A program made the translations under genes and the position numbers. From Acidobacteriota bacterium (lineage in GTDB: Bacteria; Acidobacteriota; Polarisedimenticolia; J045), in NCBI GenBank assembly GCA_003696075.1, contig RFHH01000058.1, positions 1 to 45,382 on the forward strand: a stretch of 45,382 nt of DNA, written 5' to 3'. Under the pieces are notes generated by a model. The model was not told the origin of the DNA and ran no database searches. It was given only the letters and a program-made list of their open reading frames with translations. This document shows positions 5,159 through 20,341 of this stretch, piece by piece (positions within the stretch are counted from its first letter, which is position 1; every line of letters starts with the position of its first letter).

Positions 5159-5920
5159 ATGCGTGACACCCCGCTCGTCGACCCCGACGTCGAGTGGACC
5201 GCGGAAGCCCGGATTCCCGGTTCCCCGGCGCGCGAGCGCCTTCTGCTCGCCCACGTGGGCCTGGTGAAGTACCTCGCCCACCGGATCGGGTCGCGGCTCG
5301 CCGGCCAGGTCGACTACGACGACCTCGCCGGCGACGGACTGCTGGGGTTGATCGAGGCAGTCGACCGCTTCGACCCGAAGCACAACGTCCAGTTCAAGAC
5401 GTACGCCGAGTCCCGGATCCGCGGCGCCATCCTCGATGGCGTGCGCTGCCGCGACTGGGCGCCGCGCTCGCTGCGCCGGGCGGCCCGCAAGCTCGAGTCG
5501 GCCATCCAGGCCGTCGAGGCGAGGAATCACCGGGAAGCCACGGACGAAGAGATCGCCGAGGAGCTGCAGATCTCCCTCGACGAGTTGCAGGCGCTCTACA
5601 TGCAGGCCAGAGGGGTCCGACTCGGCGCCCTCCCCGACACGGAGGAGGAGGGCCCCGGCCCGGTCGACCCGGGCGCCGACCCGCTGGATCACGTCGAGGC
5701 GAAAGAGCGCCGCGAGCTGGTCGCCGAGGAGATCAAGCGCTTGCCCGAGCGCGAGCGCATGGTGCTGAGCCTCTACTACGAGCGTGGGATGACCCTCAAA
5801 GAGATCGGCCAGATCCTGGACGTGACCGAGTCCCGCGTCTGCCAGATTCACACCCGCGCCGTCGCGCGTCTCAGGGCGCGGATCGCCGAACGCGTGAAGG
5901 TTCCGGAGGAGGTGAGATGA
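5159..5920 (+). CDS. fliA: Flagellar sigma factor FliA (sigma-28)
   Basis: FliA (253 residues) directs RNA polymerase to late flagellar promoters and is inhibited by FlgM. Region 2 is seen as LVKYLAHRIG, DDLAGDGLLGLIEAVDRFD and FKTYAESRIRGAILDGVR. Region 4 reads LPERERMVLSLYYERGMTLK and ends in the helix-turn-helix VTESRVCQIHTRAV. The ATG at 5159 is preceded by AAGGAG at 5147-5152; an earlier TTG at 5138 overlaps the flhG stop and is less likely. Four sites resembling its target promoter occur in this window: before flgM, motA, the 91-residue gene and the channel gene. Confidence 0.96.
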   Translation: MRDTPLVDPDVEWTAEARIPGSPARERLLLAHVGLVKYLAHRIGSRLAGQVDYDDLAGDGLLGLIEAVDRFDPKHNVQFKTYAESRIRGAILDGVRCRDWAPRSLRRAARKLESAIQAVEARNHREATDEEIAEELQISLDELQALYMQARGVRLGALPDTEEEGPGPVDPGADPLDHVEAKERRELVAEEIKRLPERERMVLSLYYERGMTLKEIGQILDVTESRVCQIHTRAVARLRARIAERVKVPEEVR

Positions 5921-12353: not shown

Positions 12354-12763
12354 TGGGCGGGCCGGCGGCGATCGTCCCGGCGTCGGGTCCCCGGGAGGAC
12401 AGGGAGGCGGTCCGGCGGGCGGCGCGCGGGCTGGAGGCGGTGCTCCTCCGCCAGATGCTGGCCGCCATGGAGCGGGCGCAGTTGGAGGAGGGGCTTTTCG
12501 GCCGCTCCGCCGGGGCCGGGGCGCGGCAGACGACCTTCGAGATCCTTCTCACCGAGGCCCTGGCGGAGGCGGAGCCGCTGGGGCTCGCTCCGCGCGTGGC
12601 CGAAGAGCTCCTCGGCCCCCCGCAGGAACGTGACATTGTCCGGACCGGTTCACATATTTCCAGCAGAAGGGGTCAAGTCGCACCCCTTCCGGCCGAAGAG
12701 ATCTACGGAACCGACTGGGCCGCGGCGGGATCGGAGCGCGCGGCCCCGGAGAACGAACGATGA
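12353..12763 (+). CDS. flgJ: Rod-binding protein FlgJ, N-terminal domain only
   Basis: This 136-residue protein matches the rod-binding (rod cap) domain of FlgJ: LEAVLLRQMLAAMERAQ, then GLFGRSAGAGARQTTFEILL. The peptidoglycan hydrolase domain of enterobacterial FlgJ is absent, as in many other phyla, so a separate lysozyme or SLT enzyme should open the wall. The last 40 residues (from about 12640) have AT-richer codons and no family similarity. They coincide with a FliA-type promoter and an inverted repeat. The stop overlaps the flgM start (ATGA). Confidence 0.85.
   Translation: MGGPAAIVPASGPREDREAVRRAARGLEAVLLRQMLAAMERAQLEEGLFGRSAGAGARQTTFEILLTEALAEAEPLGLAPRVAEELLGPPQERDIVRTGSHISSRRGQVAPLPAEEIYGTDWAAAGSERAAPENER
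12666..12689 (+). repeat. 8-bp inverted repeat over the flgM promoter
   Basis: GAAGGGGT (12666-12673) and ACCCCTTC (12682-12689) form a perfect 8-bp inverted repeat with an 8-base loop. It covers the -35 element and most of the spacer of the FliA-type site upstream of flgM. It may be an operator, or a hairpin ending read-through from the flgI-flgJ transcript. It has no T-run. Confidence 0.45.
12673..12699 (+). promoter_or_regulatory. FliA (sigma-28)-type promoter upstream of flgM
   Basis: TCAAGTCG at 12673-12680 and GCCGAAGA at 12692-12699 are separated by exactly 11 bases. This resembles the sigma-28 consensus TAAAGTTT-N11-GCCGATAA (5/8 and 6/8). It lies in the 3' end of flgJ, and its start point would be about 54 bp before flgM. 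A FliA-driven flgM-flgN-flgK-flgL unit is the classic late-gene arrangement. Confidence 0.55.
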
Positions 12764-13101
12764 AGATCCCCGGATCCGACCCGCTCCACCGGCTGCGGGA
12801 CCTCCTGGACCGGCTCGAGGGCGGGCGCACCGCCGGGCGGGCCGGGCCCGGATCGAGCGAGGGCCCGGCGGAAAGCGGCGGGGCCGACAGCGTGCAGCTC
12901 TCCGAGCGGGCCCGCGAGCTCCAGCGCCTCCGCGCGGCGCTCATGGAGACACCCGACATCAGGCAGGAGCTGGTGGACCGCCTCCGGGACGAGATCGCCT
13001 CCGGCCGGTACCGGATCGACGGCACGCGGATCGCCGACGAACTGCTCCGGGAGGCGGACCGTCTCGCCGTTCCCGCCGACGATGGCCGCGGCGACGCCTG
13101 A
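12760..13101 (+). CDS. flgM: Anti-sigma-28 factor FlgM
   Basis: FlgM (113 residues) binds FliA until the hook-basal body is finished, then is exported through it. The conserved C-terminal FliA-binding part is clear: ADSVQLSERARELQRLRAAL, METPDIRQELVDRLRDEIAS, then GRYRIDGTRIADELLREADR. The N-terminal half is disordered and Gly/Arg-rich, as expected for a secreted intrinsically unfolded protein. Its start overlaps the flgJ stop; a FliA-type promoter lies 60-90 bp upstream. Confidence 0.93.
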   Translation: MKIPGSDPLHRLRDLLDRLEGGRTAGRAGPGSSEGPAESGGADSVQLSERARELQRLRAALMETPDIRQELVDRLRDEIASGRYRIDGTRIADELLREADRLAVPADDGRGDA

Positions 13102-17416: not shown

Positions 17417-17932
17417 CTACTGGACGATGAACTCGACGAACAGGATCTCGCGCACCGGCGAGTTCGGCAGGAGCTGATTGAGCTCCCGCGCGATCTCCCG
17501 CCTCAGCGCCTCCTTCCCGATGGAGGTGCTGACGTCCTCGAACCGCTTCGAGGAGAGGACGGAGAGCACTCGATCGCGCACGCGCGCCTTGAGCAGCGGA
17601 TCCTGGTTGTAGCGCTCCTCGCACGTCGGGTCGCTGACGACGGCGCGGATGGTGGCCTTGACGAAGCGGTTGCCGCCGGGGTCCGCGAGGTTCACCACGA
17701 AGGTGTCGAAGGGGATGATCACCTCCTGGGCCGGCGGCGGCTCGGCCGGCGCGGACGCCGCCTCGGCGGACGGCGCGGCCTGCGCCTGGCGCCCGCCCCC
17801 GAGCAGGAGCGAGACCCCGACCCCGGCGCCGGCCGAGACGACGGCCAACACCACCATCACGACGATCATCAGCCCCTTGCCCGACTTCTTCTTCGGCTGC
17901 TCCTGCTTGGTTTCCTTCTCTTCGTCAGCCAT
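17417..17932 (-). CDS. fliL: Stator-associated basal body protein FliL
   Basis: FliL (171 residues) is a bitopic inner-membrane protein that rings the stator and supports torque. It has a short Lys/Glu-rich cytoplasmic N-terminus, one transmembrane helix (about residues 19-45, GLMIVVMVVLAVVSAGAGVG) and an Ala/Pro-rich linker. The periplasmic stomatin-like domain follows: IPFDTFVVNLADPGGNRFVK, RDRVLSVLSSKRFEDVSTSI, then REILFVEFIVQ at the end. It is the last gene of motA-motB-fliL, 24 bp after motB. Confidence 0.93.
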   Translation of the reverse strand: MADEEKETKQEQPKKKSGKGLMIVVMVVLAVVSAGAGVGVSLLLGGGRQAQAAPSAEAASAPAEPPPAQEVIIPFDTFVVNLADPGGNRFVKATIRAVVSDPTCEERYNQDPLLKARVRDRVLSVLSSKRFEDVSTSIGKEALRREIARELNQLLPNSPVREILFVEFIVQ

Positions 17933-17956: not shown

Positions 17957-18670
17957 TCATCGCCGGCCCTTGCCGTCCGACTGCGACGTCTGGATCACGA
18001 TCTCCACGCGGCGGTTCTTGCGGCGGCCCTCGGGTGTGGCGTTGTCGGCGACGGGCCGCGTCGGCCCGTAACCCACGGCCTGCATCCTGGCCGGCGGGAC
18101 CCCTTGGGACTCGAAGAAGCGGACCACGGCCGCCGCTCGCCCCGCCGACAGCTCCCAGTTGCTCGGAAAGCGCTCCGAGCGGATCGGCAGGTTGTCCGTG
18201 TGGCCCTCGACGATCACCTTCGCCCCCGACTCCTTGATCGTCGCGGCGACCGCGGAGAGGAACTCCATCGACTCCTCGTCGATCGCGGTGCTCGCCGGCG
18301 GGAAGAGGAGCTCGCCGTCCACCCGCACACGGACGCCCTCGTCGGTCCTCTCGGCCTCGACGAGACCCTCGTAGCCGAACGTGCGGAGCTTCTGGACCAC
18401 CTCCTCGAAGATCGCCTCGGCGGTGTACGTGGGCGGATTGAACTCGACGGCGATCACGGTGTCGCCGGAGGGGATCTCCGTGTAGTGGCGCATCGTCTGG
18501 ACGCCGAACGCCTCCCTGAGGTATCCGGCGATCACCTTGAAGCGCTCCGTCTCCATCGTGCTGAAGCTCAGCAGCAGCACGAAGAAGCACAGGAGGAGCG
18601 ACATCATGTCGCCGAAGGTGACGACCCACTCGGGAGCGCCCTTCTTCGGTTCGTCTGCGGGCGGTTGCAT
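17957..18670 (-). CDS. motB: Stator protein MotB
   Basis: MotB (237 residues) anchors the stator to peptidoglycan and forms part of the ion channel with MotA. The single membrane helix VTFGDMMSLLLCFFVLLLSF contains the proton-carrying aspartate (D21). The C-terminal OmpA-like domain includes VEGHTDNLPIRSERFPSNWE, LSAGRAAAVVRFFESQGVPP and the NRRVEI ending. The segment between helix and OmpA domain (about residues 50-100) holds the plug region. It lies 7 bp after motA. Confidence 0.96.
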   Translation of the reverse strand: MQPPADEPKKGAPEWVVTFGDMMSLLLCFFVLLLSFSTMETERFKVIAGYLREAFGVQTMRHYTEIPSGDTVIAVEFNPPTYTAEAIFEEVVQKLRTFGYEGLVEAERTDEGVRVRVDGELLFPPASTAIDEESMEFLSAVAATIKESGAKVIVEGHTDNLPIRSERFPSNWELSAGRAAAVVRFFESQGVPPARMQAVGYGPTRPVADNATPEGRRKNRRVEIVIQTSQSDGKGRR

Positions 18671-18677
18671 GGCCGTA

Positions 18678-19445
18678 TCAGGCGGCCTTCTTCTCGAGCG
18701 CCTTGCGCTGCTTGGGCTCGAGGTAGGCCGACAGCTTCTGTTCGACCGAGGCGGGATGGTCCCCCTCCACGATCGACAGCACTCCCTGCAGGACCAGGAG
18801 CCGGCAGTTGACCTCGTCCCGGCTGCGGTTCTTGAGCTTCTCCGCCAGCGGGGCTGCGAACAGGTTCGCGATGATCGCTCCGTACAGTGTCGTCAGGATC
18901 GCGACGGCCATCGACGGACCGATGGTGCTCGGATCCTCCATCGAGGAGAGCATCTGCACGAGCCCGATCAGCGTCCCGATCATCCCGAACGCGGGTGCCG
19001 AGGTCGCCATCCCCTCCAGGAGGTCCTGGCCGATCTTGTGCCGCTGGGCGAGGAAGTTGATCTCGGTCTCGAGGACGGTCCGGATCGCGGCGGGTTCCAT
19101 GCCGTCCACCGCGAGGCGGATCGCTTTGGCGAGGAAGGGATCGTCGATCTTGACCTTCTCCAGGGAGAGAAGGCTCTCTCGCCGCGCCTTCCGCGACAGC
19201 TCCACGATCGTGGCGATGAGTTCGCCGATCGGGGTCATCTTGCCGAAGAAGGCGTTCTTCACCACGCTGACGGTGCCGAAGACGCGGTTGAGCGGATTCT
19301 TGATGAAGGTCGCGCCGAGCGTGCCCCCCACGACCACGAGGGCCGACGGCAGGTTGAGGAAGATGACCGGATTCTCGCCGACGAAGATGGACGCGAGGAC
19401 GAGAACTGTCCCCAGCACCAACCCGATGATGGTGGAAAGGTCCAT
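18678..19445 (-). CDS. motA: Stator protein MotA
   Basis: MotA (255 residues) forms the pentameric stator ring that turns the rotor. Four membrane helices are visible: TIIGLVLGTVLVLASIFV, LPSALVVVGGTLGATF, FGMIGTLIGLVQML and MAVAILTTLYGAIIANLFAA. Between helices 2 and 3, ARRESLLSLE carries the charged residues that contact FliG. The ATG at 19445-19443 was chosen because it opens directly into the first helix; upstream codons are intergenic. A FliA-type promoter lies about 45-70 bp upstream. Confidence 0.96.
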   Translation of the reverse strand: MDLSTIIGLVLGTVLVLASIFVGENPVIFLNLPSALVVVGGTLGATFIKNPLNRVFGTVSVVKNAFFGKMTPIGELIATIVELSRKARRESLLSLEKVKIDDPFLAKAIRLAVDGMEPAAIRTVLETEINFLAQRHKIGQDLLEGMATSAPAFGMIGTLIGLVQMLSSMEDPSTIGPSMAVAILTTLYGAIIANLFAAPLAEKLKNRSRDEVNCRLLVLQGVLSIVEGDHPASVEQKLSAYLEPKQRKALEKKAA

Positions 19446-19488
19446 TCCGGCTCGGTCCTCGGGCCCGCCGCGGGGCCGTCCCCAGACC

Positions 19489-19515
19489 GTCTCGGCCGCC
19501 GATCGGCGAACTTGA
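19489..19515 (-). promoter_or_regulatory. FliA (sigma-28)-type promoter for motA-motB-fliL
   Basis: On the minus strand the site reads TCAAGTTC, 11 bases, GCCGAGAC. It matches the sigma-28 consensus TAAAGTTT-N11-GCCGATAA at 6/8 and 6/8 with ideal spacing. Transcription would begin near 19482, about 37 bp before the motA ATG. It faces the promoter at 19562-19588, 46 bp away. Confidence 0.65.
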
Positions 19516-19561
19516 GCGGGCCCCGTCCCGGGTGGAGAGCGCCCCCGGAGGGGTCCCGGAT

Positions 19562-19588
19562 TCAAGATTCGTGCCGGGCGGCCGATCA
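19562..19588 (+). promoter_or_regulatory. FliA (sigma-28)-type promoter for the 91-residue gene
   Basis: TCAAGATT at 19562-19569, an 11-base spacer and GCCGATCA at 19581-19588 match the sigma-28 consensus at 6/8 and 7/8. This is the best match in the window. The start point would be near 19595, immediately before the AGGAGG ribosome-binding site of the gene at 19607. It is divergent from the motA promoter. Confidence 0.7.
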
Positions 19589-19606: not shown

Positions 19607-19882
19607 ATGGACTTCGTCATCGGACGGATCCCGCCCCCTGGAAGCGCCGCCGAGCGGCGAGGCCGGACGGAAGGGCAGATCGAGGCGCGCATCCTCCACG
19701 TCCGTGAGCCCCGCCGCCGCCGGAGGGGCCCGGGCGATGGTCCGGAGCGGCGGCGCGCCGCCCAGGAGACCGACCCGCCCGGCGCCCGGGTCCTGGTGGT
19801 GCTGGTCCCCGAAGCGCACCGGCTCCCCGACGACCTCGCGGAGGGGAACTACCGCCTCTTCCTGCGCTTCGTGCGCCGCTGA
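19607..19882 (+). CDS. Unknown 91-residue protein, probable FliA-dependent late gene
   Basis: I do not recognise this protein. It is small and very basic: an N-terminus MDFVIGRIPPPGSAAERRGR, an Arg-rich middle with RRRRR, and a compact C-terminal part (ARVLVVLVPEAHRLPDDLAE then GNYRLFLRFVRR) that looks like two strands and a helix. It has no signal peptide, membrane helix or cysteines. The ATG is 5 bp after AGGAGG, and a near-consensus FliA promoter is just upstream. It is divergent from motA, so it may belong to the motility or chemotaxis regulon. Function is unknown. Confidence 0.7.
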   Translation: MDFVIGRIPPPGSAAERRGRTEGQIEARILHVREPRRRRRGPGDGPERRRAAQETDPPGARVLVVLVPEAHRLPDDLAEGNYRLFLRFVRR

Positions 19883-19986: not shown

Positions 19987-20341
19987 GGGGGCGAAAGGAC
20001 TCGACGGGGAGCGGAAAGCACAGGTGGCACGCCGAGGCTGCCCGGAACCTCGTTAATCACCGGGCCGCTTGAACAAGCGCCAACAACGACTTCGCTCTCG
20101 CTGCCTGATCGAGGCGGCGCGCCCGCCCGCCCCTGCCCGTGGGGGCGGTCCCGGGTGTCATAGCTCACGGGCTGGCCGTCGCATCGCTGGCCCGGCGGTG
20201 CGCGGCGAGATCGACGGGCTGGCGACCCGGGCACCTGCCCTTCGGTTCCCGGGGAGCGAGATCTGGAAGAAGCGGCTAAGCGTGTAGAAGCCTGTCGCCG
20301 ACCCTCCTCGGACGCGGGTTCGATTCCCGCCGCCTCCACCA
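19987..20341 (+). ncRNA. ssrA: Transfer-messenger RNA (tmRNA)
   Basis: tmRNA rescues stalled ribosomes by acting as tRNA-Ala and then as a short mRNA. The acceptor stem is GGGGGCG (19987-19993) paired with CGCCTCC (20331-20337), followed by A and an encoded CCA. The third pair is G-U (19989 with 20335), the alanine identity element. The 5' part has the conserved GGACTCGACGGGG block, and the T-arm GCGGGTTCGATTCCCGC is intact. The tag frame at 20079-20108 (GCC start, TGA stop) reads ANNDFALAA, ending in the protease signal ALAA. Its 355-nt length is typical of a one-piece tmRNA. Confidence 0.95.

Follow-up and report, generated by a model that had tools for sequence, protein, structure and literature searches.

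A 161-bp gap between motA and a small uncharacterised gene, in a 45,382-nucleotide stretch of Acidobacteriota DNA (the window), very probably holds two outward-facing sigma-28 (FliA) promoters, from which motA-motB-fliL and the small gene would be made at a late stage together with flagellin. This reading draws on the letters and exact spacing of the two sites, their recurrence in relatives, similar sites before flagellin genes and flgM, the presence of both fliA and flgM, and the linkage of the small gene to flagellar genes, with which it also co-occurs. The promoters are of an ordinary, known kind, and what is new is the family to which the small gene belongs; their back-to-back arrangement suggests a late flagellar function for it in one Acidobacteriota group.

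Two divergent sigma-28-type sites

The minus-strand site (19489..19515), the predicted promoter of the motA-motB-fliL unit, reads TCAAGTTC-N11-GCCGAGAC, with 43 bp between it and the start codon of motA. The plus-strand site (19562..19588), TCAAGATT-N11-GCCGATCA, lies 18 bp before the start codon of the small gene, for which it is the candidate promoter. The first-pass annotation had described two such sites with exact 11-base spacers, facing apart and separated by 46 bp, and each element of that description holds at these coordinates. Against the consensus TAAAGTTT-N11-GCCGATAA, the minus-strand and plus-strand sites have four and three mismatches in 16 letters, respectively, with the N11 spacer exact in both, and a consensus search of the window with up to three mismatches returns one match where 0.02 is expected. 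The degenerate pattern used in the first-pass annotation matches exactly these two sites in the window at zero mismatches; relaxed to three mismatches or fewer, it gives 18 matches against 8.7 expected, a count reached by one of 100 shuffles. A palindrome in the spacer of the motA site, GCCGATCGGC, was considered as an operator and rejected because spacers vary among relatives.

An outside weight matrix was derived from 15 sites before motA or the divergent gene in eight relatives (G001, G004, G005, G006, G009, G010, G020, and G033), with the window sites excluded. Its training sites were selected by resemblance to the known consensus, so the resulting scores of 22.1 bits for the motA site (rank 1 of 90,712 window positions) and 21.2 bits for the small-gene site (rank 2) measure fit to the sigma-28 motif of the relatives and do not amount to blind discovery. 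Rank 3, at 20.2 bits, is a third sigma-28-type site (12673..12699, plus strand), which lies 60 bp before flgM and within the 3' end of the gene preceding it (flgJ by position). A wide gap separates these three from rank 4, at only 13.0 bits, and 18.7 bits is the highest score that the same matrix gives in 40 Markov-simulated windows. A scan of 166,695 bases from this genome and the loci of its relatives gives 29 sites of at least 16.5 bits, nine of which are training sites; among the remaining 20, 13 lie before motA, flgM, flagellin, a FliL-like gene, or the small gene, and seven lie elsewhere. None of at least 16.5 bits is present in 37 further loci of the same genome (109,112 bases with overlaps kept, 30 of the loci chosen by a loose pattern).

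Flagellar genes and further sites in the same genome

The unit downstream of the minus-strand site consists of motA (18678..19445; stator, MotA_ExbB, PF01618, 98 bits), motB (17957..18670; MotB_plug and OmpA, PF13677 and PF00691), and fliL (17417..17932; PF03748), all on the minus strand. The sigma-28 factor FliA and its anti-sigma factor FlgM are both encoded in the genome, and both within the window, on the plus strand: fliA at 5159..5920 (start approximate; TIGR02479, 241 bits, above cut-off) and flgM at 12760..13101 (PF04316, 66 bits). Matrix-positive sites also precede both flagellin genes, on contig C180 (19.8 and 17.6 bits). Across the 3.29-Mb genome, the strict pattern TNAAG-N14-GCCGANA has eight matches, compared with none for the reversed control: one match each precedes motA and the two flagellin genes, a fourth is upstream of an Rsb-like module, and the remaining four fall within unrelated coding sequences. 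The pattern omits the small-gene and flgM sites, the -10 boxes of which end otherwise. A genome scan had been proposed with the expectation of sites before flagellin, chemotaxis, and stator genes; the strict pattern places them before motA and both flagellin genes, and a CheW-domain search offered no chemotaxis gene for comparison. The very loose pattern TCAAG-N2..30-GCCGA shows no excess over the whole genome (377 matches versus 404 for the reversed control), indicating that the signal sits only in the exact spacing and flanking letters.

Two further features of this genome were observed. A 21.5-bit sigma-28-type site (L187 2035-2061, minus strand, on contig C80) has a STAS / STAS / HATPase-SpoIIE (Rsb-like) module about 110 bp downstream of it; a STAS homolog (E <= 1e-8) is found in only one of 11 other family genomes, G009, and the locus there has no site of at least 14.5 bits. 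In addition, a CheW-domain search of the genome, which is 98.6% complete and has flagellar genes, gave no match, and hence no CheW and no CheA carrying the domain; such a match is present in 38 of 41 genomes of the class. The organism is possibly motile without chemotaxis, or its chemotaxis genes possibly fall in assembly gaps.

A small gene restricted to flagellated relatives

Judged by its conservation as a codon reading frame, the open reading frame at 19607..19882 (plus strand) is a real gene. It encodes a 91-residue protein of a lineage-restricted family, represented by a 13-member alignment with 29-69% identity to the window protein. Comparison of the G010 and G004 copies reveals 7, 5, and 36 differences at codon positions 1, 2, and 3, as in a protein gene. 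The protein is Arg-rich, with a pI of 11.5, and is conserved in three blocks, at the N-terminus (MD...G), in a central part rich in Arg (R-x-PRR), and at the C-terminus, whereas the linker varies. A membrane helix is unlikely, the top 19-residue hydropathy mean being 0.61. Searches of Pfam and NCBIfam profiles against 11 members matched none at E <= 1, and no PDB chain matched the family profile at E <= 10. An AlphaFold2 prediction run on five of the sequences is poor (mean pLDDT 44.6), and the role of the protein must therefore be read from its context.

The gene is present in 13 of 41 class genomes (E <= 1e-8), all of them among the 16 that bear motA, compared with 0 of the 25 others (Fisher p 3e-8, which overstates independence because the genomes are related). 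The three motA genomes without it are G002, G008, and G011, the last on a contig that starts just upstream of motA. The same 13 were the confident matches (E <= 1e-25) when 396 genomes from the phylum were searched. Partial matches in G055, G082, and G171 from that search (E ~3e-4 to 4e-4), and one in G022 from the class search (E 0.009), were taken as chance. When the profile was run against 65 named motA loci, only four, all from Acidobacteriota (L055-L058), rose above the inclusion threshold. None of the papers listed in literature searches addresses the small gene or sigma-28 promoters in Acidobacteriota in its title or opening abstract lines.

Recurrence of the layout in relatives

In 11 of the 13 genomes, the small gene and motA diverge (G000, the genome of the window, which is its contig C58, and G001, G003, G004, G005, G006, G007, G009, G010, G020, and G033); the small gene follows motB in one (G018) and csrA in another (G029). 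A divergent pair of sites with N11 spacers can be recognised in eight of the 11 (G000, G001, G004, G006, G009, G010, G020, and G033). G005 has an N11 spacer on the small-gene side and N12 on the motA side, and G003 and G007 have N12 or weaker forms, as judged by eye. In 60 other loci, the region upstream of motA has a site above 15 bits in one case and a pair in none. The flgM site recurs as well, in six of the seven stretches in which flgM was placed (G000, G002, G004, G020, G029, and G033, but not G018), with FlgM identity based on Pfam for G000 and G002 and on position and inspection by eye for the others.

The two genomes in which the small gene is found elsewhere differ from each other. 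In G018, flgK-flgL-motA-motB and then the small gene lie in that order on one strand (names by position and eye); the small-gene site is weak, at 15.6 bits, and nothing of at least 14.5 bits precedes flgM or motA. In G029, the order is flgK-flgL-fliW-csrA and then the small gene (named in the same way), and the motA matches are on other contigs. The small gene nonetheless has its own 20.8-bit site there, which stops 20 bases short of the start codon. This case is the strongest argument for sigma-28 control as a property of the small gene in its own right, as opposed to one acquired from motA.

These findings bear on the alternative that only the motA promoter is real, with the plus-strand site a chance match or by-product and the small gene expressed in some other way. 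The plus-strand boxes are indeed more variable among relatives (TTCAGGTG in G010, for example) and weak in G018, but this alternative is improbable in view of the second rank given to the plus-strand site by the outside matrix, the separate G029 site, and a similar box-to-start gap, 17-26 bp, in the six members that have a small-gene site of at least 16.5 bits and a start either called or placed by us. Two functional promoters remain the preferred reading. The small gene probably defines a lineage-restricted late flagellar family controlled by FliA, and the first-pass proposal that both units are late flagellar genes is supported, at the level of sequence, by the presence of fliA and flgM, the sites before the flagellin genes, the recurrence in relatives, and the independent site in G029.

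Other sigma-28-type sites were seen in two of these genomes. G033 has a second back-to-back pair (L189 4283-4390; 19.9 and 18.3 bits), one site of which lies ~42 bp upstream of a gene that looks GTPase-like on inspection. G029 has strong sites at L183 4964-4990 and L193 4843-4869 (21.4 and 22.4 bits); the genes that follow are an unnamed one and one judged FliL-like by eye.

The downstream tmRNA gene

A tmRNA (ssrA) gene with the tag ANNDFALAA (19987-20341, plus strand) starts 104 bp past the stop codon of the small gene, and a tmRNA gene is close downstream in seven of the 11 divergent loci (the window, G001, G003, G004, G006, G007, and G010). This adjacency, together with a search for an intrinsic terminator between the two genes that found none, is what would be expected if the plus-strand promoter mainly served the tmRNA by read-through, tying tmRNA supply to the flagellar stage and making the small open reading frame secondary. 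Such a role is very unlikely given that the frame is strongly conserved as coding, that G005, G009, G020, and G033 have the small gene and no tmRNA in the stretch read, and that the small gene of G018 and G029 is located elsewhere. Sigma-70-like boxes before the tmRNA also argue against it, convincingly in G003 only (10 of 12 letters, 0 of 200 shuffles) and more weakly in the window (8 of 12 letters, 2 of 200 shuffles), G010, and G007. The best such box in G001, G004, and G006 is no better than those of many shuffles, and a stricter sigma-70 scan of the window stretch before the tmRNA returned no box. Read-through into the tmRNA from the predicted FliA promoter is possible on the ground of adjacency.

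The weakest explanation, that GC-rich DNA has produced both sites by chance, is consistent with the GC content of 72% and with the lack of genome-wide excess for the very loose pattern, but is scarcely credible when the strict forms are rare, do not occur in the reversed control, and in several genomes cluster upstream of flagellar genes.

Proposed mechanism and role of the small protein

The class-3 scheme of E. coli and Salmonella, in which export of FlgM frees FliA, is established. An equivalent sequence of events is the most likely scheme for the divergent promoters. FlgM would hold FliA as long as the hook-basal body is unfinished; upon FlgM export, FliA-RNA polymerase would start near 19482 and 19595, moving outward both ways, and motA-motB-fliL and the small protein would be produced late, in step with flagellin.

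Our tentative preference is that the small basic protein works in the cytoplasm as an accessory to the late flagellum, the stator or motor being the likeliest part that it serves; participation in control of the FliW/CsrA type and a part in filament export are each less likely. The evidence is about evenly balanced on a fuller proposal: a late flagellar component not named before and specific to one Acidobacteriota class, made with the stator via the divergent FliA pair, with stator engagement or control of the FliW/CsrA type as its target. The comparative evidence would extend FliA control of stator, flagellin, and flgM genes to an uncultured Acidobacteriota lineage. It also singles out a conserved, nameless small gene, found only in flagellated members, as a candidate for a lineage-specific flagellar accessory protein.

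Comparison with known systems

Small genes occur in the flgM-flgN-flgK-flgL-fliW-csrA region of Firmicutes, which resembles the neighbourhood of the small gene in G029. In contrast to those genes, the present family has no Pfam or NCBIfam match at E <= 1 in the 11 members scanned.

The Campylobacterota protein FlgV and the present protein are alike in being small, linked to the flagellum, and outside the core set. FlgV of H. pylori is described as having two transmembrane helices and a GFFxG motif and as encoded between flhG and fliA (PMC10655999). The present protein differs in lacking a hydrophobic stretch of helix grade, and its gene lies at mot or after csrA. Identity with FlgV was rejected on these grounds, as the maximum 19-residue mean of 0.61 does not accommodate two N-terminal transmembrane helices and the gene location is another one.

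For the promoters, a close parallel is found in the class 3 sigma-28 promoters of E. coli, which are given as those of flgMN, flgKL, fliC, motAB-cheAW, and tar (PMC4183435). The two systems share the same two boxes, the same spacing, and the same target classes (stator, flagellin, and flgM), as well as the placement of a promoter inside an upstream gene, that of motA within flhC in E. coli and that of flgM within the preceding gene here (PMC4183435). Three differences from E. coli stand out: the -35 box mostly opens with TCAAG and not TAAAG; chemotaxis genes are missing from the stator unit, which is motA-motB-fliL; and another sigma-28 promoter, predicted to drive the small gene, faces the opposite way.
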